Source of the DNA: Kutzneria viridogrisea
Lineage (GTDB): Bacteria > Actinomycetota > Actinomycetes > Mycobacteriales > Pseudonocardiaceae
Direction of reading: 5' to 3'
Length of the DNA: 64,000 nt
NCBI GenBank assembly: GCA_014138725.1
Contig: JACJID010000001.1
Coordinates: 682,001 to 746,000 of the forward strand
Within the stretch, counting starts at the first letter, position 1. Each line of letters begins with the position of its first letter. The notes beneath the pieces are model-generated. The model was not told where the DNA came from and did not search any database. It worked only from the letters and a program-made list of their open reading frames with translations. The position numbers and the translations under genes were made by a program. Positions 44,097-64,000 of the stretch are shown piece after piece.

Positions 44097-46697
44097 ATGC
44101 ATTTCTTCCTTCTCGGGTCGCTGGAGGTAACGGTCGGCGATCGCACGCTGCAGTTGGGTGGGGTCAAACAGCGCCTGGCCCTGGCTCTGCTGCTGTCGCG
44201 GGCCAATGAACTGGTACCGGCCAGCCAGCTGATGCTGGCGCTGTGGCCGGACGAGACCCCCATCTCCGCCCGGAAAATCCTGCACAACGCGGTATCGGGG
44301 ATCCGCAAACTCCTGGCCGTGGCCGACAGTGGACCCGACGCGCCGCAACTACTCACCAAGGCCCCCGGCTACCTGTTGCAGGTCTCGCCGGAGCAGGTCG
44401 ACCTGATGCGTTTCCAGTTGCTGGTCCAGCAGGGGCAGGGCGAGGTCGCCGCTGGCCAGTGGGCCCAGGCCGCGGAGGTGCTGGGGCAGGCGCTGGGATT
44501 GTGGCGCGGGCCGATGCTGTCGGATCTGCTGGAGGCGGGCGCGGACTGGCCGGAGATCGGCCTGGCCAGCACGGTCCGGTTGACCGCGATCGAGGACCGC
44601 ACCGAGGCCCTCCTGCGTCTGGGCCGGGGCGGGGAGTTGCTGGGGGAGTTGGAGGCGTTGGCGGAGCAGGAACCGTTGCGCGAGCGCTTGTGCGGGCAGT
44701 TGATGCGCGTGCTGTACCAGCACGGTAGGCAGGCCGAGGCGCTGGCCGTCTACCGCCGTACCCGTACGGTGCTGGCCGAGCAACTGGGACTGGATCCCAA
44801 TCCCCAGTTGCAGGAGCTGGAGCGAGCGATCCTCAACCACGACCTGGACACCCCGCCTACCGAGGTGCCCGAGTCGGTCCCCGAACAACGTGAGGTCGCG
44901 GCTCTGTCGTCGCGGGAAAGTCTTGAGCTGGAGGAGATCCAGCAGATCAGTACCGTGCTGGTGGTCGCCAGTGCCCCGCCGGGTCAGTCGTTGACCGCCG
45001 AGGGCCTCGACCTGGTCCGCGACTACGTCGGTGCCGTCCTGGCCCAGCAGGCGCGGGATCGGGAGGTGGCGTTGCTGGAGGAGCCCGAGGCTGACCTCGG
45101 GTCGTTCCTGGCGGAGGTGGGCGCGGGCTGGCAGGACGCCGGTGATGGGGGTGGGTCGGTGCTGTGGTTGGCCTCGACCGGGGTGCGGGAGGTGCGGGAA
45201 TTCGATACCTGGCGGGCGGTGCGGCTGGCCCGGGGTGTGCACAGCCAGCTGACGGTGGATCGGGGCGGGCTGCCCGGCGGTGGGGGTGTGCCGCCGTTTG
45301 AGGTGCGGATCGTGGTCACCACCGGCAACGCCCGCGTGCGCCGTGGCAGCGCGGAGGGGGCGGTCGTGTGGCCGTGTCCGGAGCAGGACCTGCTCGCCCG
45401 GTGCCTGCGGCTGCTGACCGACGAAGGCAGGGCACCGGTACGGATGTGTGCCACCACGCTGGAGGCGGTGAGCATGCTGGACCGGGCTGAGCACCTGCCG
45501 TTCGTGGCGCGCCAGGATGAGCTGGAGACCCTGGACTGTCTGCTGGAGGCGACCCGGGTCAAGCGGCAGCCGCATCTGGTCACGGTGTTCGGCCATGCCG
45601 GGGTGGGGCGTAGCCGGTTGATCAAGCAGTGGCTCGACCGTGTCGCGGGGGATCCGGGGGTGAGCTGTGTGGTGGTGCGGTCCCAGGCCCCGATCACGCG
45701 CAGCTCCCCGACCGCGGAGCTGGCGAGCCTGGTCCGTGCGGCCGCGGGGGTGGAGGCCGGTGCCCGGGCCGCGGTGGTCGATATCAAGCTCGCCGAACTG
45801 ATCGAGCGGGTCGTGGACGAGCACCGATGTTCCTGGGTGCTGGCCCACCTGAGCACGCTGCTCAATCCCGACCGTGGCGGGGATTCGTTGGCGGAGGCCG
45901 CGGTCGAGGCCTGCGCGGTGTTGTTCGAGGCGCTGGCGGGGTGGCGTCCGCTGGTGTTGGTGGTGGAGGACCTGCACTGGGCCGATACCGCGGTCGTGGA
46001 CTTCCTCAACCTGATGGTGACGCGCCTGGGTGGGGTGCCGTTGCTGGTGGTGGCCACCAGTAGGCCGGAGTTGCTTGACCGGCATCCCGTGTGGGGTGCG
46101 GGGTGGTCGCGCAGTTGTTCGTTGTGGTTGCAGGGGTTGTCGGATGAGGAGACCCTGCGTGTGCTGTGGAACTCCTACGCGGCCCCCGGGGAGAAGTCTC
46201 GTGGGCGCGGTGGGCGGTGGTCGCCGGAGGACCTGCGTGTCATGGTGGCCCCATTGGGGGGTAACCCGTTGTTCGCGGTGGAGTACGGGCGGGTTCTGCG
46301 TGAGTCGCCGACCGGGGCGACCGTCGCGGAGATGGCTACCGCGTTGCCGTATTCGGTGCGTTCCAGGTTGGCGTTGTTGTTGAACAGTCTGCCCACTCCG
46401 GCGCGGGTGGTGCTCTATGACGTGGCGTTGTTCGATGACGGGGCGACCGAGTCGGTGCTTGGGGTGCTCGCGCGGCAGGGTGGCCAGCCCGTGCCCTATC
46501 GGTGGCTGCGATATCTGGAGCATCGGGACATCCTGCGGCGCGTTACCGGGTCGGGTGGTCAGGGTGAGGCGGAGTACGTGTTCGTCAGTGCGCACTTGCG
46601 CGCGGTGGCACGGGCGCGGGTCCCCGAGGCGGTACTGGCGCGTAAGCGGTGCCTGATCGCGTCACCAGCCAACCAACCCGAAATCCTCACCGGTTAG
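44097..46697 (+). CDS. Large SARP-family pathway regulator (OmpR-type DNA-binding, BTAD, ATPase)
   Basis: 866 aa from ATG 44097. Residues 1-95 form the winged-helix domain (FLLGSLEVTVGDRTLQLGG; LWPDETPISARKILHNAVSG). The bacterial transcriptional activation domain follows (about 100-245; MRVLYQHGRQAEALAVYRR). A middle region (about 280-460) recalls a decayed class III cyclase domain (FEVRIVVTTGNARVR). An AAA/STAND ATPase comes next, with Walker B LVLVVEDLHWAD and a Walker A reading GHAGVGRS, where Arg replaces the usual Lys. SARPs activate adjacent biosynthetic genes by binding heptamer direct repeats; this one heads the cluster. The C-terminal repeats of longer relatives are absent. Confidence 0.9.
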   Translation: MHFFLLGSLEVTVGDRTLQLGGVKQRLALALLLSRANELVPASQLMLALWPDETPISARKILHNAVSGIRKLLAVADSGPDAPQLLTKAPGYLLQVSPEQVDLMRFQLLVQQGQGEVAAGQWAQAAEVLGQALGLWRGPMLSDLLEAGADWPEIGLASTVRLTAIEDRTEALLRLGRGGELLGELEALAEQEPLRERLCGQLMRVLYQHGRQAEALAVYRRTRTVLAEQLGLDPNPQLQELERAILNHDLDTPPTEVPESVPEQREVAALSSRESLELEEIQQISTVLVVASAPPGQSLTAEGLDLVRDYVGAVLAQQARDREVALLEEPEADLGSFLAEVGAGWQDAGDGGGSVLWLASTGVREVREFDTWRAVRLARGVHSQLTVDRGGLPGGGGVPPFEVRIVVTTGNARVRRGSAEGAVVWPCPEQDLLARCLRLLTDEGRAPVRMCATTLEAVSMLDRAEHLPFVARQDELETLDCLLEATRVKRQPHLVTVFGHAGVGRSRLIKQWLDRVAGDPGVSCVVVRSQAPITRSSPTAELASLVRAAAGVEAGARAAVVDIKLAELIERVVDEHRCSWVLAHLSTLLNPDRGGDSLAEAAVEACAVLFEALAGWRPLVLVVEDLHWADTAVVDFLNLMVTRLGGVPLLVVATSRPELLDRHPVWGAGWSRSCSLWLQGLSDEETLRVLWNSYAAPGEKSRGRGGRWSPEDLRVMVAPLGGNPLFAVEYGRVLRESPTGATVAEMATALPYSVRSRLALLLNSLPTPARVVLYDVALFDDGATESVLGVLARQGGQPVPYRWLRYLEHRDILRRVTGSGGQGEAEYVFVSAHLRAVARARVPEAVLARKRCLIASPANQPEILTG

Positions 46698-46751
46698 CCG
46701 CCAGTTACCGGGTGGCGGCTCGACGCGCCGCCGCCGCCCGGTAACTGGCGG
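46698..46751. terminator. 15-bp perfect inverted repeat after the SARP gene
   Basis: CCGCCAGTTACCGGG (46698-46712) pairs with CCCGGTAACTGGCGG (46737-46751), starting 1 bp after the SARP stop and ending 83 bp before the ligase start. It can end the SARP transcript. It also carries two copies of the CGGTAAYY element seen elsewhere in the cluster, and a third (GATTACCGGG) follows at 46755, so it may double as a regulatory site. Confidence 0.6.
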
Positions 46752-46834
46752 TCGGATTACCGGGCGCTTGCCCGCCCCGATCTACGCTCGCCCTCGTTTC
46801 AAGACCGTTGCCAACCAACAAGGTGGAGCACGCG

Positions 46835-48415
46835 ATGGCGAAATCCGATTTCGACCTTGCCCACCAGTACCGTGGGACCGACGCGCGCTCCCCGGCCGAT
46901 CCGTGGCGCACCGCGGTGGCCGTCCTCGCCGCACACGCGCGGTCCCGGCCGGATGCGCCCATGCTGACCGCTGTCGCGCCGGACGGTGCCCAGACCACCC
47001 TCACCTACGGCGTGGCGGACCTGGCCACCCGTCGGCTGGCCGCGTGGTTGCAGGCGGAGTTCGGGACGGCGCCGAACACGGTGCTCGGCCTGGCGCCGGT
47101 CAACGACGTCCCGTCCGTGCTGGCCGTGCTCGCGGCCCTGCGCGCCGGCCACGGCGTGCTGATGCTGGGGCCCGCCGATCCGCCGGAGCGGCACGCGGAA
47201 CAGGCCGCCGCGCTCGGCGTGCGGGCCGTACTGCGGACCCCGGACGGCGGCACCGGCACGGTCGTCATGCCGCGCTGGGAGGACCTGCCCGAGGCCGAAC
47301 CGGTCGACCCCCGGATCGATCCGATGACCGACGCGCTGTTCTTCGGCACCTCCGGTTCGACGGCGGCCGCCAAGCTGGTCGCGCAGACCCACGGCAACCT
47401 GGTCGCCAACGCGGCGGGCCTGGGCCGCCTGCACGGGTTGCGCCCCGGTGACCGGGTCCTGGGCTGCCTGCCCATCCACCACGTCAACGGGCTGCACTTC
47501 ACCGTGCTGGGCACGATGTTCGCCGGCGCTCACACGATCCTCGCCCACTCGTTCACGCCGTTCGGCTACCCGGCTCTGGTGCGGCAGTTCCGGCCGCGCA
47601 TCGCCAGCGTGGTGCCCAGTGTCCTGGAGGCACTGGTGGAGACCTGGCGAGCCCCGTCGCTGCCCGCGGAGTTCGACTACTTCGTCTCCGCCGCGGCCCC
47701 CTTGCAGGCCAGCACGGCGCGCGCGGTGGCCGACCGGCTGGGCGCGCGCGTGCTCCAGGGCTACGGGCTGTCGGAGACCACGAACTTCTCCGCGACGATT
47801 CCCCCGAACCTGTCCGAGGACGCCTACCGCGCGCTGCTGCTGGACACCGACATCCCCTCGGTGGGCGTCGCCTTCCCCGGCAACGAGATCGCGGTGCTCG
47901 ACGAGCACTGCGCGCCGGTCCCCGCCGGTCAGGTCGGCGAGGTGTGCATGCGCGGCCACAACGTGATGTCCCGCTACGCGGGCAATCCCCAGGCCACGGC
48001 CGAGGCGTTCCAGGGTGGCTGGTTCCACTCCCAGGACCTCGGGTTTCTCCGCCACGACGAGCGGAGTGGCCGGGACTTCCTGGTCCTCACCGGGCGGTTG
48101 AAGAACATCGCCAAGGTCGCCGGGGAAACCGTGTCGCTGGAGGAGATGGACCGGGTGCTGCGTGCCCTGCCCGAGGTGCGTGACGCCGCCTGCATCGCCA
48201 CCGCGGACCGGTTCTCCGGCGAGCGGATCGTGGCCGCCGTCGTGCTTGCCCCCTGGGCGGACCAGGCGTGTCTGGACGCCCCGCTGCGCGCCCGTTTCTC
48301 CCCGGCGGTGCTGCCCAGCCGATTCGTGCTCGTGCCGGAGATTCCGCGCACCTCCACCGGGAAGGTGCTGCGCCCACAGCTGCGAAGCGAACTGGTCGGG
48401 ATGCCCGACCTGTGA
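46835..48415 (+). CDS. Acyl-CoA synthetase-like adenylating enzyme
   Basis: 526 aa from ATG 46835, with AAGGTGGAG upstream. ANL-superfamily motifs: P-loop FFGTSGSTAAAKLVAQTH (the usual TGxPK is TAAAK), GCLPIHHVNGLH, YGLSETTNFS, the hinge/A8 region LTGRLKNIAKVAGETVS and the catalytic lysine in PRTSTGKVLR. It should activate a carboxylic acid as its adenylate and pass it to CoA or a carrier protein; the carrier at 53119-53367 is a candidate acceptor. Substrate unknown. It begins the plus-strand ligase-ALDH-GNAT set. Confidence 0.87.
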   Translation: MAKSDFDLAHQYRGTDARSPADPWRTAVAVLAAHARSRPDAPMLTAVAPDGAQTTLTYGVADLATRRLAAWLQAEFGTAPNTVLGLAPVNDVPSVLAVLAALRAGHGVLMLGPADPPERHAEQAAALGVRAVLRTPDGGTGTVVMPRWEDLPEAEPVDPRIDPMTDALFFGTSGSTAAAKLVAQTHGNLVANAAGLGRLHGLRPGDRVLGCLPIHHVNGLHFTVLGTMFAGAHTILAHSFTPFGYPALVRQFRPRIASVVPSVLEALVETWRAPSLPAEFDYFVSAAAPLQASTARAVADRLGARVLQGYGLSETTNFSATIPPNLSEDAYRALLLDTDIPSVGVAFPGNEIAVLDEHCAPVPAGQVGEVCMRGHNVMSRYAGNPQATAEAFQGGWFHSQDLGFLRHDERSGRDFLVLTGRLKNIAKVAGETVSLEEMDRVLRALPEVRDAACIATADRFSGERIVAAVVLAPWADQACLDAPLRARFSPAVLPSRFVLVPEIPRTSTGKVLRPQLRSELVGMPDL

Positions 48416-48470
48416 TCCACCGCGGGCGGCCGGGGCACCCAGCCGGCCGCCCGCCAGTCGAAGGAGACAG

Positions 48471-49832
48471 ATGCTGATGGCCGAGCGTGCGACGACCCTG
48501 GTTGACCCGCGCACCGGGCGCCCCAGGGGCAAGTCGCCGATCAGCGACGAGGTCGATGTGGCTGCCGTGGTGGCCACAGCCCGCGAAACGGCGGTCGCAT
48601 GGGCCCGGTTGACCCCACGGGAGCGGTCCGGCCGACTGCTGGAGCTGGCGGTCGTCATCGAGCAGCACACCGAGAGCTACACCCGGGCCGAACAGGCGGG
48701 TACCGGCAAGCCCGAGGCCGAGGCGCGGGTCGAGGTGGGCAACTGCGTTGATGTACTGCGGTTCTACGCGGGCGCGGCCCGCGCGGAGACCACGCCGGGC
48801 TCCGGCCGTCGGATGGCGGGGCTGGAGAGTTGGGTGCGGTGGGAGCCGCTGGGCGTGGTCGCCGCGATCGTGCCGTGGAACTATCCCCTGCTGATGGCGA
48901 TGTGGCGGCTGGGCCCCGCGCTGGCCGCGGGCAACACCGTGATACTCAAGCCCGCGGAGACCACCCCGGAGTCGGTGCAGCTGCTCGCCGAGCACGCGGC
49001 GCCGATCCTGGGTCCCGACGTGATCTCGGTGCTGCCCGGCGACCGCGCCACCGGACAGCACCTGGTGAGCAGTGGGATCAACGCGGTGGCCTTCACCGGC
49101 AGCCTGCAGGGCGGTCTGGACGTGGTCAAGCGTGCCGGTGTGCGCAGGGTGAGCCTGGAGCTGGGCGGCAACGGCCCCGCGCTGGTCCTGCCCGACGCGC
49201 CCGCGGACACCGCGGCCGAGCTGGTGGCGGCCTGCCTCTACAACGCCGGGCAGAGCTGTGCGGCCCCGGCCCGCGTGATCACCCTGCGGAAGAACTACGA
49301 GCAGACCGTGCACGCCCTCGCGGCGGCGATGGAGAAGCAACTGGCCGGACGCGACTTCGGGCCCCTGAACAACCCCGACCAGCTCGACCGGTTCGACTCG
49401 ATCCTGGCCCGCAGCGGCGCCGGTTTCCGTTACGAGTCTGGTTTGCGGCTCGCCGAGGACGAGCAGGACGGGTTCTGGCGTGCCGGGCAGATCCTGGCCG
49501 ACCTCAGCCCGGACGACCCGGCCGTGGTGGAGGAACTGTTCGGCCCGGTGCTGACCGTGCAGTCCGCCCCCGACCTGGCTGGTGCGGTACGGCTGGCCAA
49601 CTCGGTGCCGCAGGCGCTGGGGGCCAGCGTGTGGGGGTCGGACGTGGGCACCGTGCTCACCGTGGCTGGCGAGGTCAACGCGGGCGAGGTCTGGGTCAAC
49701 TGCCACCTCAAGCAGACCGCGGAACTCCCGCACGGCGGCCGCGGCCAGTCCGGGACCGGCACCGACCTGAGTGTGCTGGCGCTGGCGGACTACCAGCGTC
49801 CCAAGACCGTCACCGTCCGGGGGGCGTACTGA
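48471..49832 (+). CDS. Aldehyde dehydrogenase of the biosynthetic cluster
   Basis: 453 aa from ATG 48471, after AAGGAGACAG (ATG 48477 is also possible). Motifs: IVPWNYPLLMAMWRLGPALAAG, AFTGSLQGG, the base in SLELGGNGPALVL, the nucleophile in NAGQSCAAPARV and EELFGPVLTV. Slightly short for the superfamily. It likely oxidises an aldehyde intermediate to an acid (or an amino-aldehyde, as relatives do). TGATG overlap couples it to the GNAT that follows. Confidence 0.9.
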   Translation: MLMAERATTLVDPRTGRPRGKSPISDEVDVAAVVATARETAVAWARLTPRERSGRLLELAVVIEQHTESYTRAEQAGTGKPEAEARVEVGNCVDVLRFYAGAARAETTPGSGRRMAGLESWVRWEPLGVVAAIVPWNYPLLMAMWRLGPALAAGNTVILKPAETTPESVQLLAEHAAPILGPDVISVLPGDRATGQHLVSSGINAVAFTGSLQGGLDVVKRAGVRRVSLELGGNGPALVLPDAPADTAAELVAACLYNAGQSCAAPARVITLRKNYEQTVHALAAAMEKQLAGRDFGPLNNPDQLDRFDSILARSGAGFRYESGLRLAEDEQDGFWRAGQILADLSPDDPAVVEELFGPVLTVQSAPDLAGAVRLANSVPQALGASVWGSDVGTVLTVAGEVNAGEVWVNCHLKQTAELPHGGRGQSGTGTDLSVLALADYQRPKTVTVRGAY

Positions 49833-50350
49833 TGGCCGCGCACACCTGGGAAGTCGCCTCGAACCCGGACGAGGTGCACGAGCTGCTCTGCGCCAGCGAC
49901 CGATTCCAGGCGGGCCGGTTCGACTCCCCAGTGCCGACACGCAATCCGGCCACCACAGCCAAGCGGGTGGCCGCCGGGGTCGTGCACCTGCTGCGGGTGC
50001 ACGACCAGGCAGCGGCCATGTTCACGCTGACCTGGGAACCCGCGTTCGAGGAGCCCTCCGGCGTGTTCCCGGCGGCTCGTCGCCCGGCCTACCTGGGCCG
50101 CCTCGCGGTACGCCCCGATCTGGCCGGGACGGGTTCGCTGGCGGGTGCGCAGTGCGTGCGACGGGCGCTGTCGCTGGCGCGTGAGCAGGGCGCGGACATG
50201 ATCCGCGCCGAGGCCAATCCCGACCTCGAAGCCACCGTGGACATGTTGGTGGTGTTGGGTTTCACGCGATGTGAGCAGGTGTTCGCCGACGACTCAGGCC
50301 GCAGGCGTGTCCATCTGTACCAGTGGTTGGGGGACACGCCTGCGGCCTGA
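49832..50350 (+). CDS. GNAT-family N-acetyltransferase of the cluster
   Basis: 172 aa from ATG 49832, overlapping the ALDH stop. The CoA-binding segment is LAVRPDLAGTGSLAGAQCVRR, with LGRLAV as the preceding strand and VVLGFTRCEQVF near the end. It could acylate an amine of the product or intermediate, or give self-resistance. Its last 19 codons are part of a 19-bp perfect inverted repeat, so the 3' end is shaped by a terminator structure. Confidence 0.82.
   Translation: MAAHTWEVASNPDEVHELLCASDRFQAGRFDSPVPTRNPATTAKRVAAGVVHLLRVHDQAAAMFTLTWEPAFEEPSGVFPAARRPAYLGRLAVRPDLAGTGSLAGAQCVRRALSLAREQGADMIRAEANPDLEATVDMLVVLGFTRCEQVFADDSGRRRVHLYQWLGDTPAA
50294..50350. terminator. 19-bp perfect inverted repeat inside the end of the GNAT gene
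   Basis: TCAGGCCGCAGGCGTGTCC (50294-50312) and GGACACGCCTGCGGCCTGA (50332-50350) pair perfectly around a 19-nt loop. The right arm ends exactly at the GNAT stop codon, and the convergent methyltransferase ends 9 bp further on, so this should stop transcripts from both sides. Confidence 0.75.
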
Positions 50351-50358
50351 TCGGTCGG

Positions 50359-51126
50359 TCAGGGGCGGACGGCCTTGAAGACGGTGCGGCACGGGGTGCT
50401 GGTGCGAGAGCAGGACCCCGAGTCGCATTTCAGGTCGGCACCCCCGAACTCGTGGGTCACGGGCTCCAGCCCGGCCGAGCACAGCGCGGTGACGACGGTC
50501 TCGTGGTCGTAGTACCAGCTGGTCAGGGTCTGGTCCACGCGCTCAACGCGGTCGCCGCCGTTGTACACGCCGGAGACTCGCAGCATGCCCGAGCGCGTCT
50601 CAGGGTCCCACGCCCCCCGCTTGACCACGACCGCTTCCGGGGTGTCGGTGACGGTGACGTGGTTCCAGTGCAGGAAGTGGGACTGCTCGAACAGGTCGAA
50701 CACGAACACCCCGCCCGGGGCCAGGGCCGCGTGCACGGCGGCGAAGCACCGCTCCAGCTCCGCGGACGAGGGCAGGTGGTTGAGTGCACCGTCGAGGCTG
50801 AAGCAGGCCGATACCTGCTGCGGCAGGGTGAACTCGCGGGCGTCGCTGACCACCAGTCGCAGTCGGCCCTCCTGCTTGGCCTCGCTGTTGCGGGTGCTGG
50901 CGATGTCGAGCATCGCCTTGGATCCGTCTACCCCGACCATCTGCCACCCCGCGTCGAGCAGGTAGGAGGTGGTGATCCCGGTGCCACAGCACAGGTCCAC
51001 CGCGGTGTGCGGGAGCTGGGTGGTCCTCGTGAGGTGCTCGGCCAGCCGTGGGGAGAAGCGGTGCACCCAGCCGGTGTAGCTGCTGTCGAAGAAGGACGCG
51101 AATCCCGCGCCGTAGTAGTTGCCCAT
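50359..51126 (-). CDS. Class I SAM-dependent methyltransferase
   Basis: 255 aa from ATG 51126. Motif I is TAVDLCCGTGITTSYLLDAG, the acidic post-I residue is in MVGVDGSKAMLDIA, and motif IV is VSACFSLDGALNHL, followed by APGGVFVFDLF. It methylates a small-molecule N-, O- or C-centre; which one is unknown. Several Cys near the C-terminus (DLKCDSGSCSRTSTPCR) are unusual for the family and might bind metal. It is the last gene of the minus-strand biosynthetic operon. Confidence 0.87.
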   Translation of the reverse strand: MGNYYGAGFASFFDSSYTGWVHRFSPRLAEHLTRTTQLPHTAVDLCCGTGITTSYLLDAGWQMVGVDGSKAMLDIASTRNSEAKQEGRLRLVVSDAREFTLPQQVSACFSLDGALNHLPSSAELERCFAAVHAALAPGGVFVFDLFEQSHFLHWNHVTVTDTPEAVVVKRGAWDPETRSGMLRVSGVYNGGDRVERVDQTLTSWYYDHETVVTALCSAGLEPVTHEFGGADLKCDSGSCSRTSTPCRTVFKAVRP

Positions 51127-51140
51127 CTGATTGTCCTCTC

Positions 51141-52151
51141 TCAGCGGCAGCTGAAGTGGTGAACGGTGCGGTGCCGGTGGGTGTGCCCGGGGTCCAGGCG
51201 GACCGAGGGAAACTCCGGGCGGTTGGGGGCGTCCGGCAGCGCACCGGTCTCCAGGCAGATCCCGGCCCGGGGGCGTTGGCTGAAGAAGTCGCCGGTGTAC
51301 ACGCCGACCGCGGGCTGATCGGTGCTCACCCGCATGGTGCGTCCGCTGCCAGGATGGGACAGCTCCGCTACGCGGGACTCGTCGCCAAGCAGGTAGCAGT
51401 TGTCCAGCTTGGTGCCAGCCAGGCTTCGCGCGGTGGTCAAGTCCAACCCCGTCCCGCGTACCTGGGCGGGGGGACCGGGCAGCGGAATGACCTCCTCGTC
51501 GAAGCGCACGGCCTCGGTGGCGTCCAACCGCAGCCAGTGCTCGTCGATCGTGCCGCTGCCGGCGAGGTTCCAGAAGGTGTGGTTGGTCAGCCCTACGATG
51601 GTGGGCGCCGTGGTGCGCGCGGAGTGCTCGATGGTCAGCGTGCAGCCCGGCTCGAACCGGTACGTCGTGGTGACGTCCACCTCGCCGGGATAGCCCTGGT
51701 CCCCGTCCGGGCTGGTGAGCGAGAGCCGCACTTCCAGCGCGTCACCGTCCCGCCCCGCCTCCGCCGACCAGACGCGGCGGTCGAACCCGTCGGAGCCGCC
51801 GTGGACGTGGTGGCGCCCCTGGTTGCGGTCCAGCTCGTAGCGCAGGCCGTCCAGTTCGAACTCCCCGCCGGACACGCACCGGCAGTAGCGCCCGACGGTG
51901 GCGCCAACGTAGGGGTTGCTCGCCTGGTCGAGGTAGGCGGGCAGGTCCGGCAGGCGCACGCACACGTTGTCCACCTGCCCGTCCCGGTCAGGTACCCGGA
52001 CCTCCACCAGCGTCGCGCCGTAGGTCCACACGGTGACGCCCCACCCCTGGCCAACCTCGAGTGAGTACGACTCGACTTCGGCCGCAGGGCGGCCTTCGCA
52101 CGCGGGCGCGGTACCGACCGCAGTGCGCTCGATGCGAGGACTTGTGGCCAT
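51141..52151 (-). CDS. Aldose 1-epimerase (galactose mutarotase)-family protein
   Basis: 336 aa from ATG 52151. Family motifs: the substrate-binding HHVHGGSDGFDRRVW, IVGLTNHTFWNLAG and the catalytic Glu in ICLETGALPDAPN. The first motif (GRYCRCVSGGEFELDG) departs from the usual GRxANRI, with cysteines in its place. It interconverts sugar anomers in the cytoplasm, or has been recruited for another sugar-like epimerisation. It lies 11 bp after the LLM oxidoreductase and 14 bp before the methyltransferase, firmly within the operon. Confidence 0.87.
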   Translation of the reverse strand: MATSPRIERTAVGTAPACEGRPAAEVESYSLEVGQGWGVTVWTYGATLVEVRVPDRDGQVDNVCVRLPDLPAYLDQASNPYVGATVGRYCRCVSGGEFELDGLRYELDRNQGRHHVHGGSDGFDRRVWSAEAGRDGDALEVRLSLTSPDGDQGYPGEVDVTTTYRFEPGCTLTIEHSARTTAPTIVGLTNHTFWNLAGSGTIDEHWLRLDATEAVRFDEEVIPLPGPPAQVRGTGLDLTTARSLAGTKLDNCYLLGDESRVAELSHPGSGRTMRVSTDQPAVGVYTGDFFSQRPRAGICLETGALPDAPNRPEFPSVRLDPGHTHRHRTVHHFSCR

Positions 52152-52162
52152 GGTGACTCCTC

Positions 52163-53122: not shown

Positions 53123-53367
53123 CCGCTGCTCGGGGAGGACGCCGAGCGGACCGCGTCCGCCATGGTCCGGACGCTGCCGAAGGTCTCGGCGGTGACCAGG
53201 TCCGGCGGGAACTCCAAGCCGAAGCGCCGTTCCAGGGCGACCAGCAGGGCGACCGAACCCAGCGAGGTCAAGCCGACCTCGCTGAGCGGGGTGTCCACGC
53301 CGACGCCCGCGGCGCCGGGCAGTTCCCCGCGCACCAGCTCCATCACCTCTTCAGTGGTGGCGTCCAC
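53119..53367 (-). CDS. Acyl/peptidyl carrier protein (carrier 1)
   Basis: 82 aa from GTG 53367, with GAGGAGTGAGCG upstream. A four-helix carrier fold is evident. The phosphopantetheine serine is Ser35 in EVGLTSLGSVALLV, where the usual Asp-Ser is Thr-Ser, and the second helix is ALERRFGLEF. It tethers an activated acid during processing. Its stop overlaps the LLM oxidoreductase start, suggesting that enzyme works on its cargo. The loading enzyme may be the ligase at 46835 or the adenylation domain at 59554. Confidence 0.88.
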   Translation of the reverse strand: MDATTEEVMELVRGELPGAAGVGVDTPLSEVGLTSLGSVALLVALERRFGLEFPPDLVTAETFGSVRTMADAVRSASSPSSG

Positions 53368-56947: not shown

Positions 56948-57817
56948 TCAGCGGATTCGAAGGCGCTTGAGGTGGCGGGGGTTGCGGACCGAGACCAGTC
57001 CTGCGGTCCTGCCGTGGAAGTGGCGCGTGTTGTCGATGACCACCATCAGCCCGCGCCGCCAGTGCACGCCGGCCGCGCCGGGCGCGTACATGGCGGCCAG
57101 CAGGGCCCCGATGGCCGCGTTGACGGTCTCGGGGTCGTCGTCCTCGTCGTTGATCCAGTCCAGGCGGTCGCCGAGGAAGTCTCGGAAGGAGAACACGGGC
57201 TGGCTCGTACCGAGTCGCACGATCGTCTCCCCAGCGGGCAGGTGTGCGTACCGCGTGCGCGAGAGCACCTTCACCTGCTGGGCGGACAGTCGAGCGGCCA
57301 CGTCGGCCATCGAGATCAGCACCGTCTGCGAGGAGGTTGGGTCGTCCCCGGGGTGGCAGCACATGAGCACGATGTAGCGGGGCTGCTCAGCGGCGATCCG
57401 GCCGCTGCCCTCGGAGTGCAACGACAGCGAGTTCTCGGCGAAAGGTTGCAGTGAGACGTCGTTGGTGTGGTGGTGCTTGCCCAGCAGGTTGAGGATCACC
57501 CCGTCAGTCACGAACGGCTGCACCGCAGGGTCGGTCTCCTCGGTGGCGGTGCCCAGGCCAGCGCCGAACTCGACGAAGTCGTTGTCGCTGAAGGGTTCGT
57601 TCAGCTGTACGGCCGCCACGCCGTGTGTGCTCAGGTCCGTGGCGACCAGGGCCAGCACCTCCTTCGGGCGCGGCCCGCACGCCCGAACCGCACCGCCCAG
57701 CGGCGAGGGCAGCACCTCTCCGGCGTCCAGCAACTTGTGCCGCCATGGCACGTGTTCGTGGTGGTCCTGCTCGGTGTAATGGTTGGTCCGCACAATGAAC
57801 TCCACCCCTCCCGGCAT
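56948..57817 (-). CDS. Clavaminate synthase/AsnO-like Fe(II)/2-oxoglutarate oxygenase
   Basis: 289 aa from ATG 57817; GTG 57793 has the better ribosome site (GGGGTGGAG) and may be the true start. The iron triad is of the clavaminate-synthase type: His134-x-Glu136 in SLSLHSEGSG and the distal His in DNTRHFHGR (about 268), with Arg downstream for 2-oxoglutarate. H-x-E rather than H-x-D groups it with CAS, AsnO and VioC, which hydroxylate or desaturate amino acid side chains. First gene of the minus-strand operon. A beta-hydroxylation of Asp/Asn, free or carrier-bound, is my best guess. Confidence 0.83.
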   Translation of the reverse strand: MPGGVEFIVRTNHYTEQDHHEHVPWRHKLLDAGEVLPSPLGGAVRACGPRPKEVLALVATDLSTHGVAAVQLNEPFSDNDFVEFGAGLGTATEETDPAVQPFVTDGVILNLLGKHHHTNDVSLQPFAENSLSLHSEGSGRIAAEQPRYIVLMCCHPGDDPTSSQTVLISMADVAARLSAQQVKVLSRTRYAHLPAGETIVRLGTSQPVFSFRDFLGDRLDWINDEDDDPETVNAAIGALLAAMYAPGAAGVHWRRGLMVVIDNTRHFHGRTAGLVSVRNPRHLKRLRIR

Positions 57818-58174: not shown

Positions 58175-58441
58175 ATGGACGGTCGTGCCGCGTTGACCGA
58201 GGCCGCAGTGCGGGATCGCCTGAGCTCATGCCTCGCCGAGCTGCTGCTCATGGAGAGGGTACCGGACGACTTCGACCTGATCTCGAACGGAAGTCTCAAC
58301 TCCTCCATGTTCCTGGCGCTGCTCGTCGAACTGGAGGACAGGTTCGACATACAGATCTCAGGCACTGACATGAACCCCGAGAACTTCCAGACCCTGGATC
58401 GCATGACCCAGTTCGTCTGCGCGAAGCGAACGGAAAGCTGA
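58175..58441 (+). CDS. DltC-like carrier protein (carrier 2)
   Basis: 88 aa from ATG 58175. The carrier fold resembles D-alanyl carrier proteins: FDLISNGSLNSSMFLALLVE holds the putative phosphopantetheine serine (Ser43; Asn-Ser in place of Asp-Ser), followed by LEDRFDIQISGTDMNPENFQ. It heads an operon with a stand-alone adenylation enzyme, so an amino acid, probably aspartate, is loaded on it. A neighbouring Ser44 leaves some doubt about the exact attachment residue. Confidence 0.85.
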   Translation: MDGRAALTEAAVRDRLSSCLAELLLMERVPDDFDLISNGSLNSSMFLALLVELEDRFDIQISGTDMNPENFQTLDRMTQFVCAKRTES

Positions 58442-58442
58442 C

Positions 58443-59501
58443 GTGGGCGAGCCCTTCTCGGTCACGGGCTGCACCCCGGCCGACTACGCCGACATCGCCG
58501 ACATCCAGGAGGGACTGTTGGCGGGCGGTCGGGACGGCAACCTGGCGTACCTCAAGTGGAAGTACGGTGCGAACCCCTATCTGGACGACAGGTACACCGT
58601 GCTGGCCAGGTCGGGTGGAGCCGGTGGCGGCGACCTGATCGGAATGGTCGGGGTCTTCGGCTCGTGCTGGGAGGCTGGCGGGCAGCGCTTCGTCCTGCCC
58701 TGCCTCACCGACACCATCGTGGCCCCCGAGTACCGCAACAGCTCGGCCTTCCACGACATGGTCGACACGGTGCTGGAGCTGCTGCGCCGGGATGGCGTGC
58801 CGTGGCTGCTGGACTTCGGCGACCAGGGCACGATCCCCTCGATGCTCGTCCGTGGGTGGCGGATGGTCGGCCCGTGGGCCCAGTCCGCGCTCACCAGGCC
58901 GGAGGGCTTCCGGCCTCCCGCCGCGTGGGAGGAGGTCCCGCCGAGCAGCGGCGCCAACTCCGGGGTCCTGCTGCGGGCCACGCCCGGCGCGGACCTCGAT
59001 GCCATGGTCGCGGTTGCCCGCGGCGTGCCCCAGGACGGGCGCGTGCGAGTCGTGCGCGACAGGGCCTACTTCACTTGGCGCGCGGCCAATCCGCTGGCCC
59101 GGTACTACTACCTGGTCGCGGGCGGGGAGGAGCCCCAGGGCTACCTGGTCGCGCACCGCTCCGGGGTCGACACCGACGAGGGCCCCACGCCGACCACGAT
59201 CGTCGAATGCGAGGCCAGGACCGACGAGGTGTTCGCCGACCTGGTCCTGGCCGCGCACGAACGCCTCCCTGGCAGGCGGGTCGTCATGGGGACCAGGGAC
59301 GTGTGCCGGGCCGGGCTCGACGTGCTCACCAGTCTGGGAGCCGACATCGTCCAGCCCACGGGACGGTTCACCCGTGACCGCCCGCTGCCCAACCTCATTA
59401 TCCGGGACACGGGCACGGCCGGTGTCCTTGCGGAGTTGGCGGGGCTGCTCGAACCCGAGGTGTGGGATTTCCGCGGTGTGACCGGCAGGGGATGGCGCTG
59501 A
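58443..59501 (+). CDS. GNAT-fold acyl/aminoacyltransferase-like protein
   Basis: 352 aa from GTG 58443, 1 bp after the carrier protein stop. A GNAT-like N-terminal half is suggested by LAYLKWKYGANPYLDDRYTV, VLPCLTDTIVAPEYRNSSAF and LLDFGDQGTIPSMLVRGWRM, the pattern of acyltransferases found beside stand-alone carrier proteins. A second, weaker repeat occupies the C-terminal half (RAYFTWRAANPLARYYYLVA). Position between a carrier and its adenylation enzyme suggests that it moves the tethered aminoacyl group onto an amine. This is inferred from context. Confidence 0.65.
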   Translation: MGEPFSVTGCTPADYADIADIQEGLLAGGRDGNLAYLKWKYGANPYLDDRYTVLARSGGAGGGDLIGMVGVFGSCWEAGGQRFVLPCLTDTIVAPEYRNSSAFHDMVDTVLELLRRDGVPWLLDFGDQGTIPSMLVRGWRMVGPWAQSALTRPEGFRPPAAWEEVPPSSGANSGVLLRATPGADLDAMVAVARGVPQDGRVRVVRDRAYFTWRAANPLARYYYLVAGGEEPQGYLVAHRSGVDTDEGPTPTTIVECEARTDEVFADLVLAAHERLPGRRVVMGTRDVCRAGLDVLTSLGADIVQPTGRFTRDRPLPNLIIRDTGTAGVLAELAGLLEPEVWDFRGVTGRGWR

Positions 59502-59553
59502 GCGCGACCGCGTCCCGACCAATCCGCCACCGGACGACAACGAGGGGTAACTG

Positions 59554-61158
59554 ATGGTTGGCCAGCAAGCGGGCGAATTCTTCGGCGCCACCCTGATCGG
59601 GGAGACGCGCACACTGCTCGCGCCCTCGGTGGTGCACCTGATCCAGTGGTACGCCCGCACCACCCCGGACGCCCCGGCGCTGCACTGCGGCGACACCGTG
59701 ACCACCTACCGCCAGCTGTGGGCGCGCAGCACGGCCGTCGCGCAGCTGCTGCGGGAACTGGACGTGCAGCCCGGCGAGGTCATCGGAGTGGTCGCCCACC
59801 GCAACGCCGAGACCGTGGCCGCGATGGTCGCCGTCATGGCGCTCCGCGCGACCTACCTGCCGGTCGACCCGAGCAACCCGGTCGAGCGGGTGCGCGTCAT
59901 CCTTGAGCAGGCCAAGCCCCGGGTCGTGCTCTGGGACGGGACCGGCGACCCCGGCTGCACACTGGGTTTCCCCTCGGTGGACACCTCGCGGGCACCCGAT
60001 CTGCCCGAGGGGGCAGACCCCGGCTGGCCGCTGCCCCACCAGGTGCCCGGCCTCGACGACGTGGCCTACATCGTGTTCACCTCCGGCACCGCGGGCGTGC
60101 CCAAGGGGGTCATGGTCGAACACCGTTCCCTGGTCAACTACATCGGCTGGGCCGAATCCCTCGCCCTGCCCGGCGCGGGCGGCGCCGCCTGCCCGGTGTT
60201 CGGCAGCCTCGGGTTCGACCTCGCCCTCACCACGCTGTGGGTGCCGCTGGGGCACGGGCGCGCCATCGTCATGATCGACAGGTCCTGGGACTACGCCGCG
60301 CTGTTCGCCGAGCGCCCCACTCCGTACGACTTCGTCAAGGCCACGCCCAGCCACGTCCGGCTGTTCGAGCGAATGCTGCGGCCCTCCTACCAGTCGGTGA
60401 TCAAGACGCTCATGATCGGCGGCGAGCCGCTGGAACCGGCCATGCTGGCCACCATGGCCGACCGGCTCAACGGCGTGCAGGTGGTCAATCACTACGGCCC
60501 GACGGAAGCCACGATCGGCTGCTGCGCCCACAAGTTCCTGGTGTCCCAGCTGCCCAGGACGCCGACCGTGCCGATCGGCCGCCCGGCGTGGAACACCGCG
60601 GCCTACGTCGTGGACGAGGGCGGCAACCCGGTCAAGCGTGGCGAGCCGGGTGAGCTGATCATCAGCGGTTTCGGCATCGCGCGGGGGTACCTCAACGGCG
60701 ACGGCGGGCGCTTCCTGCACGCGGCCGAGTTCGGCGGAAAGGCATACCAGACCGGCGATATCGTCGAGGTCCTCCCAGAGGGGGTCCTGCTGCACCTCGG
60801 GCGCCGGGACAGCCAGCTGAAGATCAACGGGTACCGGTTCGAGCTGGCCGAGCTGTGTGACTACGCGCTGGCGCTGCCGCAGGTGGTCGACGCCGCCTTC
60901 GACATCATCCGCGGCGGCACGCTGGACGTGGTGGAGGCGTTCGTGGTGTTCGACGAGCACGCCCCGGCCGCACCGCCCTCGGAGTTGGAGATGCGCTCAC
61001 GGCTGGCTTCGTTCCTGCCGACCGAGCTGGTGCCCAAGCGGGTGCACGCGGTGCCCGAGATCAAGGTCGACGCCAACGGCAAGCGTGACCTGCGCGCCAC
61101 CAGGGCGCTGCTCGACGCGTTCGGCGCCAGCTCGCAGTCGGCAGGGGAGCGGCCGTGA
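59554..61158 (+). CDS. Stand-alone NRPS adenylation domain, predicted aspartate-activating
   Basis: 534 aa from ATG 59554. Core motifs: A3 VFTSGTAGVPKGVMVEH, A5 NHYGPTEAT, A7 YQTGD, A8 hinge GRRDSQLKINGYRFEL and A10 DANGKRDLRA. No condensation or carrier domain is attached. Reading the ten specificity positions by alignment to PheA gives Asp222, Leu223, Thr226, Lys262, Met287, Gly289, His313, Ile321, Gly322, Lys510 = DLTKMGHIGK. The classic aspartate code is DLTKVGHIGK; Lys262 would bind the side-chain carboxylate. It should load L-Asp (or a close analogue) onto the carrier at 58175. Confidence 0.88.
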   Translation: MVGQQAGEFFGATLIGETRTLLAPSVVHLIQWYARTTPDAPALHCGDTVTTYRQLWARSTAVAQLLRELDVQPGEVIGVVAHRNAETVAAMVAVMALRATYLPVDPSNPVERVRVILEQAKPRVVLWDGTGDPGCTLGFPSVDTSRAPDLPEGADPGWPLPHQVPGLDDVAYIVFTSGTAGVPKGVMVEHRSLVNYIGWAESLALPGAGGAACPVFGSLGFDLALTTLWVPLGHGRAIVMIDRSWDYAALFAERPTPYDFVKATPSHVRLFERMLRPSYQSVIKTLMIGGEPLEPAMLATMADRLNGVQVVNHYGPTEATIGCCAHKFLVSQLPRTPTVPIGRPAWNTAAYVVDEGGNPVKRGEPGELIISGFGIARGYLNGDGGRFLHAAEFGGKAYQTGDIVEVLPEGVLLHLGRRDSQLKINGYRFELAELCDYALALPQVVDAAFDIIRGGTLDVVEAFVVFDEHAPAAPPSELEMRSRLASFLPTELVPKRVHAVPEIKVDANGKRDLRATRALLDAFGASSQSAGERP

Positions 61159-61212
61159 TGTCGGAGCCGATACCCACCCAACACCGTCCGGCTCCCCGAA
61201 GGAAGTGATCGA

Positions 61213-63063
61213 ATGTGCGGCATCACCGGATGGGTGGCCTTCCACCGCGATCTCAGTCGAGAGCAGGGCGCACTGGAGGCGATGACCGGGACCATGGCCA
61301 ACCGGGGCCCGGACGCCTCGGGGACCTGGGTGGACCGGCAGGGCGGCCACGCCGCCCTCGGGCACCGCCGACTGGCCGTGGTGGACGTCGAGGGCGGTGT
61401 CCAACCGATGGCCGTGGACACCCCGACCGGGACCGTGGCGATGGTCTACAGCGGGGAGGTCTACAACTACACCGAGCTGCGCGAGGAACTGCGCAGGCGC
61501 GGGCACACCTTCCGTACCGCCAGCGACACCGAGGTCGTGCTGCACGGCTACCTCGAATGGGGACGGGCCGTCGCCGAACACCTCAACGGCATGTACGCCT
61601 TCGCCGTGTGGGACGCCCGTGCTGCCGCGCTGGTGATGGTGCGCGACCGCATGGGCGTCAAGCCGCTCTACTACTACCCGACCGACGACGGCGTCCTGTT
61701 CGGCTCCGAACCCAAGGCGATCCTGGCCAATCCGTTGGCAGCGCCCGTGGTCGACCTCGACAGCCTGCGCGAGCTGTTCGGGTTCATCAAGAACCCGGGA
61801 CACGCCGTGTGGGCGGGTATGCGTGAGGTCAAGCCTGGCACCGTGACCACAGTGGACGTCAACGGGATCCACGAGGCCACCTACTGGTCGCTCCCGGTCA
61901 TCGAGCACGGCGACGGGCAGGACGCCACGGTCGCCCACGTGCGCGAGCTCCTGGAGGACATCGTGGCCCGGCAGTTGGTCTCGGACGTGCCGCGCGGGGC
62001 ACTGCTGTCCGGCGGGCTGGACTCCAGCGCCATCACGGCGCTGTCCGCCGAGCACCTGGCCGTCGCGGGGGAGAAGCTGCACAGCTTCGCCGTCGACTTC
62101 ACCGGGCAGGGCGAGAACTTCGCCCCGGACGCCGAACGCCACACCCACGACATGCCGTTCGCGCACGAGGTGGCGGCCCGCGCCGACACGGTGCACACCG
62201 ACATGGTCCTGGACTCGGGTTCGCTCGCGGTACCCGGGATCCGGCGTGCGGTGATCACCGCGCGGGATGTTCCTGCCGGGACCGGGGACACCGATACCTC
62301 GCTGTACCAGTTGTTCCGCGAGATCCAGCAGCACGTCACGGTCGCGCTGTCCGGGGAGAGCGCGGACGAACTGTTCGGCGGCTACCGCTGGCACCACGAG
62401 CTCCGCCTCGAGGAGGCCGCGACGTTCCCGTGGATCGCGTTCAGCGGCCACCACCACGGCCGGGACGGCCACGTGCTGCGCCCCGAGCTGCGTGCCGCGC
62501 TCGACGTGCAGGGCTACGTCCGCGACCACTACGCCACCGCCGTGGCCGAGGTCGAACACCTGCCCGGCGATGACGAGCAGGCCCGCCGCAGGCGGGTGGT
62601 CAACCACCTCGGGCTGACCCGGTTCCTCCGCATGATGCTCGACCGCAAGGACCGGCTGAGCATGGCGGTCGGCTTGGAGGTCCGCGTGCCGTTCTGCGAC
62701 CACCGCCTGGTCGAGTACGTCTACAACGCGCCGTGGTCGATGAAGACCTTCGACGGCAGGGAGAAGAGCTTGCTGCGGGCCGCGGTCCGGGACGTGGTGC
62801 CCGCCTCGGTGGTGCAGCGGGTCAAGAGCGCCTACCCCTCCGTGCAGGCCCCCGACTACCTGGCGGCGGTGCGCGGGCAGGCGGCGCGCCTGCTGCACGA
62901 GCAGGACCACCCCGTGTTCGAACTGGTCCACCGGCTATGGCTGCGCGCCGCGGTCGAGGCGGACCCCGGCCAGGTCGACGTCACCACGCGGTCCGGCCTG
63001 GAGCGCTGCCTGAACCTGGCCGAGTGGCTGGAGGTCTACCGACCGCGGCTCAGCCTCTCCTGA
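61213..63063 (+). CDS. Glutamine-dependent asparagine synthetase-type amidotransferase
   Basis: 616 aa from ATG 61213. Cys2 (MCGITGW) and the N-terminal glutaminase motifs (ANRGPDASG, LGHRRLAVVD) are intact, so ammonia comes from glutamine. The synthetase domain has the pyrophosphate loop LLSGGLDSSAI and SGESADELFGGY. Glu382 sits where beta-lactam synthetases have Tyr, which argues for amide formation rather than ring closure. It may amidate an aspartyl or other carboxylate of the pathway intermediate. Plain cellular asparagine synthesis is an alternative, but it lies 54 bp after the adenylation gene. Confidence 0.88.
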   Translation: MCGITGWVAFHRDLSREQGALEAMTGTMANRGPDASGTWVDRQGGHAALGHRRLAVVDVEGGVQPMAVDTPTGTVAMVYSGEVYNYTELREELRRRGHTFRTASDTEVVLHGYLEWGRAVAEHLNGMYAFAVWDARAAALVMVRDRMGVKPLYYYPTDDGVLFGSEPKAILANPLAAPVVDLDSLRELFGFIKNPGHAVWAGMREVKPGTVTTVDVNGIHEATYWSLPVIEHGDGQDATVAHVRELLEDIVARQLVSDVPRGALLSGGLDSSAITALSAEHLAVAGEKLHSFAVDFTGQGENFAPDAERHTHDMPFAHEVAARADTVHTDMVLDSGSLAVPGIRRAVITARDVPAGTGDTDTSLYQLFREIQQHVTVALSGESADELFGGYRWHHELRLEEAATFPWIAFSGHHHGRDGHVLRPELRAALDVQGYVRDHYATAVAEVEHLPGDDEQARRRRVVNHLGLTRFLRMMLDRKDRLSMAVGLEVRVPFCDHRLVEYVYNAPWSMKTFDGREKSLLRAAVRDVVPASVVQRVKSAYPSVQAPDYLAAVRGQAARLLHEQDHPVFELVHRLWLRAAVEADPGQVDVTTRSGLERCLNLAEWLEVYRPRLSLS

Positions 63064-63412
63064 CCGCCGCGGCCCGGCAATGTCCGGTCCGAATGGTCGG
63101 CGTTGATCGCATTGGCGATTCGCCCCAACGGTATTGCACTTTTATGCACCCATTGTCGGGTAATCATCCAGGGAGGCGTGACAGAGGCCGGTAATCGGCG
63201 AGCAATCGGCGAGCTGGATTACCGTGCGATGAGAGCATCGGGAGTCGTCACTGTACATCGATTAACCGGTGTCGTACGATCGATGACAGCCCGGATTTCC
63301 GGAGGGCTCCCACGGTCCGGGGCATTTCCTTGTGCTGTACATCCAGCGCTCGGTCGAGTCACCGTTCATTGCCGGAGTCAGGTCCGGAAACACTGAGGAA
63401 AAGGATTTGTCG
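63064..63412 (+). promoter_or_regulatory. AT-richer promoter region before the cupin gene, with direct repeats
   Basis: No gene is seen. AATCGGCGAGC is repeated in tandem at 63193-63203 and 63204-63214 (11-bp period, as in SARP sites). GGTAATC occurs at 63159 and 63190, and GATTACC at 63217, forming a dyad around the tandem repeat. The base composition is clearly less GC-rich than the flanking genes. Confidence 0.5.
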
Positions 63413-64000
63413 ATGGATGCCATGAACCCTGCCATGAAGCACGCGCCGGATGAGGAGAACGAGGTCCAGGATCTCATCGGTTTCCGTGACCCGGCGCAGA
63501 ACCGGGTCATCCCGGTGGCGCAGTTCCGGGCCGACATCGCCTTCGCGGTCGTCGACCGGCTGGCGTCGGTGGTGCGCGAGGCGCACAAGTCCGCGGAAGC
63601 CACCACCGCCGACGACGAGGGCATCGTCCGCGCCCAGACGTTCGAGGAGGGCGACGTCTACATGCTGGCGAGCCCGTTCGACGGGTACTTCGCCGACCGG
63701 TACCTGATGGACTTCTACGACGTCGAGGAGCGGGACATCTGTTCCCGGATGCACCTGCACACCGGACTGCGCTTCGTGCGCATGATGACCGGTCCCGGCA
63801 CCCGCATCCGCGTGTCCAGCCTGTCGCCGTTCATCGTCTCCGACGTGCGCGGGGTGACGCCGTTCTCCCCGGACACCTTCGAGGACGATCTGCCCGGAAC
63901 TCCGGAGGGGCACCAGCGTACGCGGTACAACCTGATCGTGCCGGAGAACTCCTGGGTGGACATGCAGATCCCGCGCGGGACCTCGCACCAGTTCAACGCG
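63413..64000 (+). CDS. Cupin-fold protein (runs off the right edge)
   Basis: At least 196 codons from ATG 63413, after GAGGAAAAGGATTTG. A helical N-terminal about 90 residues is followed by a cupin core: SRMHLHTGLRFVRMMTGPGT with the HxH metal pair, and IPRGTSHQFNA with the third His. It is probably a metal-dependent enzyme (dioxygenase, epimerase, isomerase or cyclase-like) or a regulator acting on a pathway intermediate. The C-terminus and any second cupin domain lie beyond the window, so the family cannot be fixed. Confidence 0.75.
   Translation, partial: MDAMNPAMKHAPDEENEVQDLIGFRDPAQNRVIPVAQFRADIAFAVVDRLASVVREAHKSAEATTADDEGIVRAQTFEEGDVYMLASPFDGYFADRYLMDFYDVEERDICSRMHLHTGLRFVRMMTGPGTRIRVSSLSPFIVSDVRGVTPFSPDTFEDDLPGTPEGHQRTRYNLIVPENSWVDMQIPRGTSHQFNA

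Follow-up and report, generated by a model that had tools for sequence, protein, structure and literature searches.

A gene cluster of Kutzneria viridogrisea with two isoleucyl-tRNA synthetase genes is very likely a rearranged variant of the altemicidin/SB-203208 (sbz) family

The window analyzed here is a stretch of 64,000 nucleotides from the 10.25-Mb genome of Kutzneria viridogrisea (assembly GCA_014138725.1, contig JACJID010000001.1, positions 682,001 to 746,000 of the forward strand; G000:C1:682001-746000 in our own numbering). Its right part carries a biosynthetic gene cluster, which we compare below with the sbz cluster for altemicidin and SB-203208; the letters of Sbz proteins refer to that cluster, all coordinates are those of the window, and protein families were assigned with Pfam/NCBIfam or via homologs in related loci. 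On the plus strand, the gene of a SARP-family regulator with BTAD and AAA_16 domains (44043..46697, start probably the ATG at 44097; Pfam) is followed by an AMP-ligase in an SbzL-like position, which may load the acyl group (46808..48415; Pfam, and matched in 34 of 37 related clusters), by an SbzJ-like aldehyde dehydrogenase with retained NAGQSC motif (48471..49832 with estimated start, in an open reading frame (ORF) spanning 48162-49832; Pfam E 7e-107), and by a small, single-domain, SbzI-like GNAT protein (about 49829..50350). The latter is defined by homologs at 49844-50332 and a weak Pfam GNAT match (E 0.0095), and 17 of 39 stretches contain relatives of it among their unassigned ORFs; two clusters are included twice in the 39 (L025/G358 and L055/rish). 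The minus strand then encodes, all by Pfam and related loci, a methyltransferase using S-adenosylmethionine (SAM) in an SbzE-like position with a proposed role in N-methylation (50359..51126), an aldose 1-epimerase or mutarotase in an SbzH-like position (51141..52154, start estimated within the ORF 51141-52685), an LLM (F420/FMN) oxidoreductase in an SbzF-like position (52163..53122), carrier protein 1 in an SbzG-like position (53119..53367), an SIS sugar-phosphate isomerase-type protein in an SbzN-like position (53462..54517) and a BtpA/SgcQ family protein in an SbzO-like position (54531..55334). Further on the same strand are a pyridoxal phosphate (PLP) enzyme of the PseP family (55327..56907; assigned by PDB match and structure model) and a TauD-type 2-oxoglutarate oxygenase in an SbzQ-like position (56948..57817; Pfam, PDB match and related loci). 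Back on the plus strand there are carrier protein 2, attributed to the amino-acid branch (58175..58441; Pfam), a large, SbzC-like GNAT protein (58443..59501; Pfam), an amino-acid adenylation enzyme with an aspartate-type code in place of SbzB, here called A2 (59554..61158; Pfam and code reading), an AsnB-type amidotransferase with N-terminal Met-Cys (61213..63063; Pfam and motif reading) and a cupin-like protein, g17 (63332..64153), which crosses the window end.

The cluster extends past the window edge to about 74-75 kb. In this right flank we found an MmyB-type regulator (64325-65212), an NmrA-like protein (about 65227-66123), a first isoleucyl-tRNA synthetase (IleRS1, 1022-1048 amino acids, ending at 69351), an MFS transporter on the minus strand (69401-70657), a second isoleucyl-tRNA synthetase 6.8 kb beyond the window end (IleRS2, 1009 amino acids, 70763-73792), an ORF of 99 amino acids with similarity to the first part of an adenylation domain (73804-74103; L010 15804-16103) and, as last gene, a methyltransferase (74128-74910). 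The large cluster genes are open frames with strong third-position GC content, the signature residues examined in the PLP enzyme, TauD protein, aldehyde dehydrogenase and AsnB are retained, and a candidate serine is present in each carrier. The 99-amino-acid ORF, for which Pfam gave no match, is perhaps a remnant of an adenylation domain; a 50-amino-acid piece of it is 76% identical to a site on contig C3 of the same genome (L078).

A sequence-only reading of the window had described a cluster of unassigned type built around a carrier-bound aspartate. All gene types it named are present, including the GNAT pair, and its list lacked the aldehyde dehydrogenase. The absence of condensation, ketosynthase and glycosyltransferase domains holds for a Pfam scan of 22 window ORFs, which lie at 40770 or beyond. 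The cupin it had recognized in g17 keeps the conserved HxH and SHQFN motifs, but Pfam does not back the assignment, with zero matches even at E<=10. Hence, the cluster is real and its parts list correct; the class assigned to it is wrong, because it belongs with altemicidin/SB-203208.

The first line of evidence comes from the PLP enzyme. This protein of 526 amino acids has PseP as its best PDB match (E 7.6e-166), and an AlphaFold model (pLDDT 91), built from a 31-member family alignment (A3) after removal of the rows L066 and L067, superposes on the entry 8k3h, entitled 'Cryo-EM structure of PseP with NAD' (nicotinamide adenine dinucleotide), with a TM-score of 0.97 (target) at 55% identity, while the next-best Foldseek match reached 0.82 (target) at 17% identity. 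Lys335 lies within the motif SLSKNWS. An identity as aspartate 4-decarboxylase was considered and rejected, because PseP is the best match. The adjoining TauD protein (HSE at 134, His268) had been regarded as an AsnO-like oxygenase; however, the best of its four PDB hits at E<=0.1 is the N-terminal part of PseP (E 4e-49), AsnO is not among these four, and clavaminate synthase is matched with E 0.00095 only. Since the PLP enzyme and its TauD neighbour both match PseP, PseP represents a fusion of the two, with a PLP domain 55% identical to the window enzyme and a homologous TauD domain in a single protein, whereas the window cluster encodes them as two separate genes. In altemicidin biosynthesis, the PLP enzyme SbzP joins NAD and SAM by a [3+2] annulation (PMC11610977; PMC10491745). 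By homology the window enzyme is thus a putative SbzP-type annulase, a link drawn indirectly through the NAD bound to PseP and through the sbz paralog of Streptomyces antioxidans, not through the SbzP sequence.

The second line of evidence is the shared gene content. The sbz cluster of Streptomyces sp. NCIMB 40513, as described by Hu et al. in 2019, comprises 18 genes in the operons A-C and D-R, encoding among others an IleRS-like protein (A), adenylating enzymes (B, L), GNAT proteins (C, I), an MppJ-like methyltransferase (D), carriers (G, K), an aldehyde dehydrogenase (J) and a cupin (M); F, H, N, O, P and Q are required for altemicidin and dispensable for 2-sulfamoylacetate, and S. antioxidans MUSC 164 is named among four sbz paralogs (PMC6331615). 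In four related loci (L026, L028, L030, L056) the genes are arranged as MFS, TauD, PLP, BtpA, SIS, cupin, adenylating enzyme, aldehyde dehydrogenase, small GNAT, mutarotase, carrier, LLM and methyltransferase; L034 shows the same order with the MFS gene outside the stretch, and L027 shows it up to its contig end. Read as sbz R to E, this arrangement agrees with the published roles at P, M, L, J, I and G. In S. antioxidans (L028 and L074) it continues with a methyltransferase of 341 amino acids and then, on the opposite strand, with the large GNAT gene, an adenylation enzyme and IleRS2, so that the large GNAT gene sits two genes from IleRS2, which fits the letters D, C, B and A. From the matching order we infer that N is the SIS protein, O BtpA, Q TauD, H the mutarotase, F the LLM enzyme, E the methyltransferase and R the MFS transporter. 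By best tblastn identity, 14 genes of the window cluster match the S. antioxidans cluster at 36-66%: the PLP enzyme at 65%, BtpA, aldehyde dehydrogenase and LLM enzyme at 64%, the MFS transporter at 62%, methyltransferase, AMP-ligase and mutarotase at 59%, the large GNAT at 53%, TauD at 51%, the small GNAT at 47%, SIS at 41%, carrier 1 at 36%, and IleRS2, which is 66-68% identical to its counterpart. The companion core defined from the paralog clusters (TauD, BtpA, SIS, mutarotase, LLM, methyltransferase) thus appears complete at 41-64% identity, and adenylating enzymes, carriers and GNATs are present in pairs, together with the aldehyde dehydrogenase, the second adenylating enzyme and carrier by type. 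The SARP regulator gave a partial match (262 amino acids, 51%), and IleRS1 matched the IleRS2 gene only (37%).

The two IleRS genes fit into this picture, because the sbz-type antibiotics SB-203207 and SB-203208, which derive from β-NAD and SAM, are IleRS inhibitors. IleRS1 carries HHVE and KMSKH, scores above the ileS cut-off (853 versus 621 bits) and shares 69-70% identity with copies from the Rhodococcus opacus and Lentzea clusters; as an intact enzyme it probably provides self-resistance. IleRS2 carries HYGH and SMSRA, scores below the same cut-off (586 bits) and is 58% identical to a third IleRS of the genome, located at C2:992822 (HYGH/KMSKT) and presumably the housekeeping enzyme, compared to 68% with a copy from S. 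cacaoi. SbzA has the motifs HYGH at 61-64 and AMSKA at 605-609 (PMC12945691), and the S. cacaoi copy has HYGH and AMSKA with the same spacing of 544, while the spacing in IleRS2 of the window cluster is 516. The cluster hence encodes a putative SbzA-like IleRS, and a function of IleRS2 as isoleucine transferase can be inferred from its sequence.

Several points weigh against an assignment to the sbz family and have to be considered. The letters E, F, H, N, O, Q and R, and also the identification of the cupin at the SbzM position as SbzM, rest on the order match, and only one of the four loci (L030) has a carrier match at the K position. Moreover, sbz was compared through the S. antioxidans paralog, not through LC420052 or its gene table. 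The SIS protein is just 41% identical to that of S. antioxidans, A2 as counterpart of SbzB only 30%, and carrier 2 had no tblastn match there. With the paralogs' cupin from the SbzM position as query, no SbzM-type cupin was found in window, right flank or genome (best E 0.05), which leaves the sulfonamide acted on by SbzA unaccounted for, and the methyltransferase at the SbzD position of S. antioxidans had no match in window or right flank. Finally, the genes are ordered unlike sbz, being split into several short groups over both strands, and the role given below to BtpA, SIS protein and mutarotase is a guess. On the other hand, if the order match is accepted, 16 of the 18 sbz genes have a counterpart in the window cluster, B and K by type only, with M and D missing. 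Compared with sbz, the window cluster adds AsnB, the aspartate-type A2, an intact second IleRS, g17 and the NmrA and MmyB proteins; AsnB, g17, MmyB, NmrA, the 99-amino-acid ORF and the last methyltransferase had no tblastn match in S. antioxidans. A comparison with a cluster of known product, made here via the sbz paralog, is largely positive for gene content and negative for gene order. Collectively, we consider it very likely that the cluster is a variant member of the altemicidin/SB-203208 family, with a product that is probably NAD-derived and IleRS-directed; due to the missing SbzM-type cupin it is filed as a variant and not as an SB-203208 cluster.

In the aspartate branch the window cluster departs from the sbz cluster, and here the sequence-only reading is borne out in part: one adenylating enzyme looks specific for aspartate and has its own carrier two genes away. 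The A2 code reads DLTSMGHIGK in the window and is identical in S. rishiriensis, S. albospinus and S. kronopolitis, whereas S. antioxidans has DGWSLGFIAK and a Sphaerisporangium enzyme DIWSIVVIAK; code positions were set by hand on motifs in an alignment of these six enzymes, the enzymes of S. sparsogenes, Lentzea and G385 being outside it. The aspartate code of surfactin synthetase is DLTKVGHI (PMC3207962), so it is the 8-letter code that was matched, and the full 10-letter code found no match in the literature. The four enzymes with the aspartate-type code come from exactly the four clusters with AsnB, the window AsnB being 68-69% identical to the other three. AsnB and A2 thus stand in for the β-methylphenylalanine branch, and the carrier-bound aspartate is probably a late decoration rather than the core. 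In S. rishiriensis and S. albospinus, a glutamate (methylaspartate) mutase S/E pair lies beside A2 (L071 16573-18476; S. rishiriensis rish 14547-16447 and C1 275554-277454, L064/L065), with 82-86% identity between the two species and an E of 3e-116 to Met_asp_mut_E for the S. albospinus E subunit. Hence, these two strains probably load 3-methylaspartate, which may echo the β-methylphenylalanine of SB-203208. For the window cluster, formation of 3-methylaspartate was rejected, because the mutase is unmatched in window and right flank. The only MutE-type match of the genome (34% to S. albospinus) belongs to a very long frame of a different contig. This frame of 5770 amino acids from stop to stop (L077 2706-20015, minus strand, G000:C3) starts with mutS-like (29%) and mutE-like (34%) stretches, so that a mutase is apparently fused to a giant enzyme, and lies near two adenylation-type matches. 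The cluster of S. rishiriensis NBRC 13407 (L055, L063-L065), for which literature searches found no paper, is 69% identical to the window cluster in AsnB, 66% in A2 and in the large GNAT and 60% in IleRS2; it has the SbzM-type cupin and the mutase pair that the window cluster lacks, and its 54 kb gave no match to g17, the window methyltransferase or IleRS1.

These data permit a tentative pathway, in which gene content, homology, motifs and conservation are observed directly and every reaction is deduced from published sbz work or guessed. The PLP enzyme would take methylthioadenosine off SAM and couple the remaining four-carbon quinonoid with β-NAD at its nicotinamide ring to form a 6-azatetrahydroindane, which the TauD enzyme might hydroxylate, the LLM enzyme reduce and the methyltransferase N-methylate on the ring. 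BtpA, SIS protein and mutarotase could help to remove the ribose part; a nudix or phosphatase step was rejected, because neither domain occurs among the scanned cluster proteins. AMP-ligase, carrier 1 and small GNAT would attach an acid to the amine, with the aldehyde dehydrogenase making this acid (2-sulfamoylacetate in sbz). Since an SbzM-type cupin was not found in the genome, another enzyme has to supply the aldehyde, with g17 as candidate stand-in. Relatives of SbzM are reported from diverse clusters (PMC9113183). A2, carrier 2 and large GNAT might add an aspartyl group where SB-203208 has β-methylphenylalanine, and AsnB could amidate this group or a neighbouring acid. IleRS2 would transfer isoleucine from Ile-tRNA onto the molecule, IleRS1 would protect the producer and the MFS protein may act as exporter. 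A nucleotide-derived, amino-acid-decorated product is likely, in line with the small molecule expected before.

The sequence-only reading amounts to an independent pathway around a carrier-bound aspartate, in which an AsnO-like TauD enzyme hydroxylates, the PLP enzyme and AsnB rework the amino acid, and SIS, BtpA and mutarotase add a sugar. The aspartate-type code of A2 and the single plus-strand run of carrier 2, large GNAT, A2 and AsnB agree with it. However, TauD, PLP, BtpA and SIS genes were matched together in 28 of the 37 clusters compared (34 loci, the R. opacus plasmid, a Nonomuraea gerenzanensis record and G385), at least one of them being missing within the stretch compared in L029, L031, L035, L052, L053, L054, L057, L058 and L066, whereas AsnB was matched in only three clusters besides the window; 25 of the 28 lack an AsnB match in the stretches compared. 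Together with the fusion of TauD and PLP domains in PseP, solved with NAD, and the restriction of the aspartate-type code, among the six enzymes aligned, to the AsnB clusters, this makes such a pathway very improbable.

Within the sbz family, and hence overlapping with our preferred assignment, the acyl group may be another one than 2-sulfamoylacetate, with aldehyde dehydrogenase and AMP-ligase acting on a different acid and IleRS2 acylating another acceptor. The missing SbzM-type cupin speaks for it, as does g17, a different protein that also adjoins the AMP-ligase in R. opacus, where the aldehyde dehydrogenase is unmatched in a 37-kb stretch. Yet the cluster retains aldehyde dehydrogenase, AMP-ligase, small GNAT and the SbzA-like IleRS2, a set most easily explained by continued sulfonamide formation, and L030 has both cupin types; we therefore regard another acyl group as a serious possibility somewhat short of an even chance. 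A decayed sbz-type cluster that has lost its product would explain the missing SbzM- and SbzD-type genes, the change of the IleRS2 KMSKS motif to SMSRA with its deviating spacing, and the adenylation-like 99-amino-acid ORF. Against decay, the large genes are open with the GC pattern and signature residues described above, and SbzA itself has a changed KMSKS; hence, decay appears unlikely.

Searching 84,980 species genomes with a profile of the PLP alignment A1 yielded 34 loci, 22 of them in Streptomyces and others in Nonomuraea, Micromonospora, Lentzea, Sphaerisporangium, Plantactinospora, Actinocorallia, Winogradskya, one Nostoc and one Crocinitomix metagenome-assembled genome; among 397 sampled genomes of the window's own order, the PLP gene was found at E<=1e-30 in three, the own genome included. 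In 33 genomes of these loci (L027 left out), we searched for aminoacyl-tRNA synthetases up to 25 kb from the PLP gene. A class I enzyme was present in at least 20 of the 33 genomes, all different, compared to about two expected by random placement, a statistic that ignores the relatedness of the genomes. By type, these were at least nine Ile and at least one Val enzyme (PF00133, about 1.5 genomes expected), five Cys or Cys-like enzymes (PF01406, 0.45 expected) and five Glu or Glu-like enzymes (PF00749, 0.24 expected). The class II controls were found in none of the 33 genomes, PF00152 against about 0.4 expected and PF00587, among the matches listed, against about 1.0; the nearest listed PF00587 match lies 51 kb away in S. 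griseocarneus. In 13 of the 33 genomes, none of the searched class I families occurs within 25 kb among the matches listed, which argues against a strict rule. A Lentzea GluRS-type gene at 27 kb and the families AlaRS, PheRS, TrpRS/TyrRS and ArgRS fall outside this census, and L033, L047 and L053 lie on short contigs.

In their motifs, these synthetases follow the same pattern as the Ile enzymes. Actinocorallia (L046) encodes two CysRS enzymes, one intact and one degenerate; in the CysRS-like proteins of L051, L052, L057 (two) and L058 no KMSKS was recognised, and L038 has an intact GluRS, while the GluRS-like proteins of L044, L069 and L071 have lost the HIGH histidine; the GluRS of L039 was counted with its motifs unread. 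For the Plantactinospora enzyme, the score exceeds the alt_ValS cut-off, and KMSKS is retained. It is conceivable, at odds that we put slightly below even, that the NAD-derived azaindane is a shared warhead re-aimed at different tRNA synthetases, the encoded synthetase predicting target and amino acid. An intact synthetase would then serve self-resistance (Ile, Val, Glu, Cys) and a motif-broken copy would be an SbzA-like, tRNA-dependent ligase (Ile, Glu, Cys); the window would be the Ile case with both copies and Actinocorallia the same pair for Cys. If the synthetase indeed marks the target, about twenty uncharacterised clusters could be read as candidate Ile, Glu, Cys or Val tRNA synthetase inhibitors. 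The window cluster predicts a new congener with an aspartyl or amidated aspartyl group replacing β-methylphenylalanine and possibly a second sulfonamide route, and its putative Ile-transferase and putative resistance IleRS can be tested against each other. In Micromonospora rubida (L048), the cluster IleRS, from about 17.2 kb, is the only IleRS of the genome among the matches listed; hence, it may be the housekeeping gene, or the cluster copy replaced it.

Such clusters are reportedly diverse, as stated in an abstract by Barra et al. from 2021. The use of NAD as natural-product building block was first reported in 2021 (cited in PMC11610977). In the open-access literature we found nothing on PseP, on such a role of BtpA or on a switch of synthetases among sbz-type clusters, of which subscription papers may cover part. 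Some related loci have features of their own. The 691-kb linear plasmid of R. opacus (L066, NZ_CP095404.2), typed as mobilizable, carries at about 14437-26493 an sbz-type core (g17, AMP-ligase, TauD, PLP, BtpA, mutarotase, small GNAT and LLM) with its own ileS, adjoining condensation and AMP-binding genes. S. griseocarneus (L054) has a pair of SbzP-like PLP genes at a distance of 5.4 kb, whose products are 59% and 52% identical to the window enzyme, with a weak cupin match as the only other cluster gene in the stretch. Finally, the set of TauD, PLP, BtpA, SIS and AMP-ligase genes in Nostoc (L050) and in the Crocinitomix genome (L047) indicates that it exists beyond actinobacteria.

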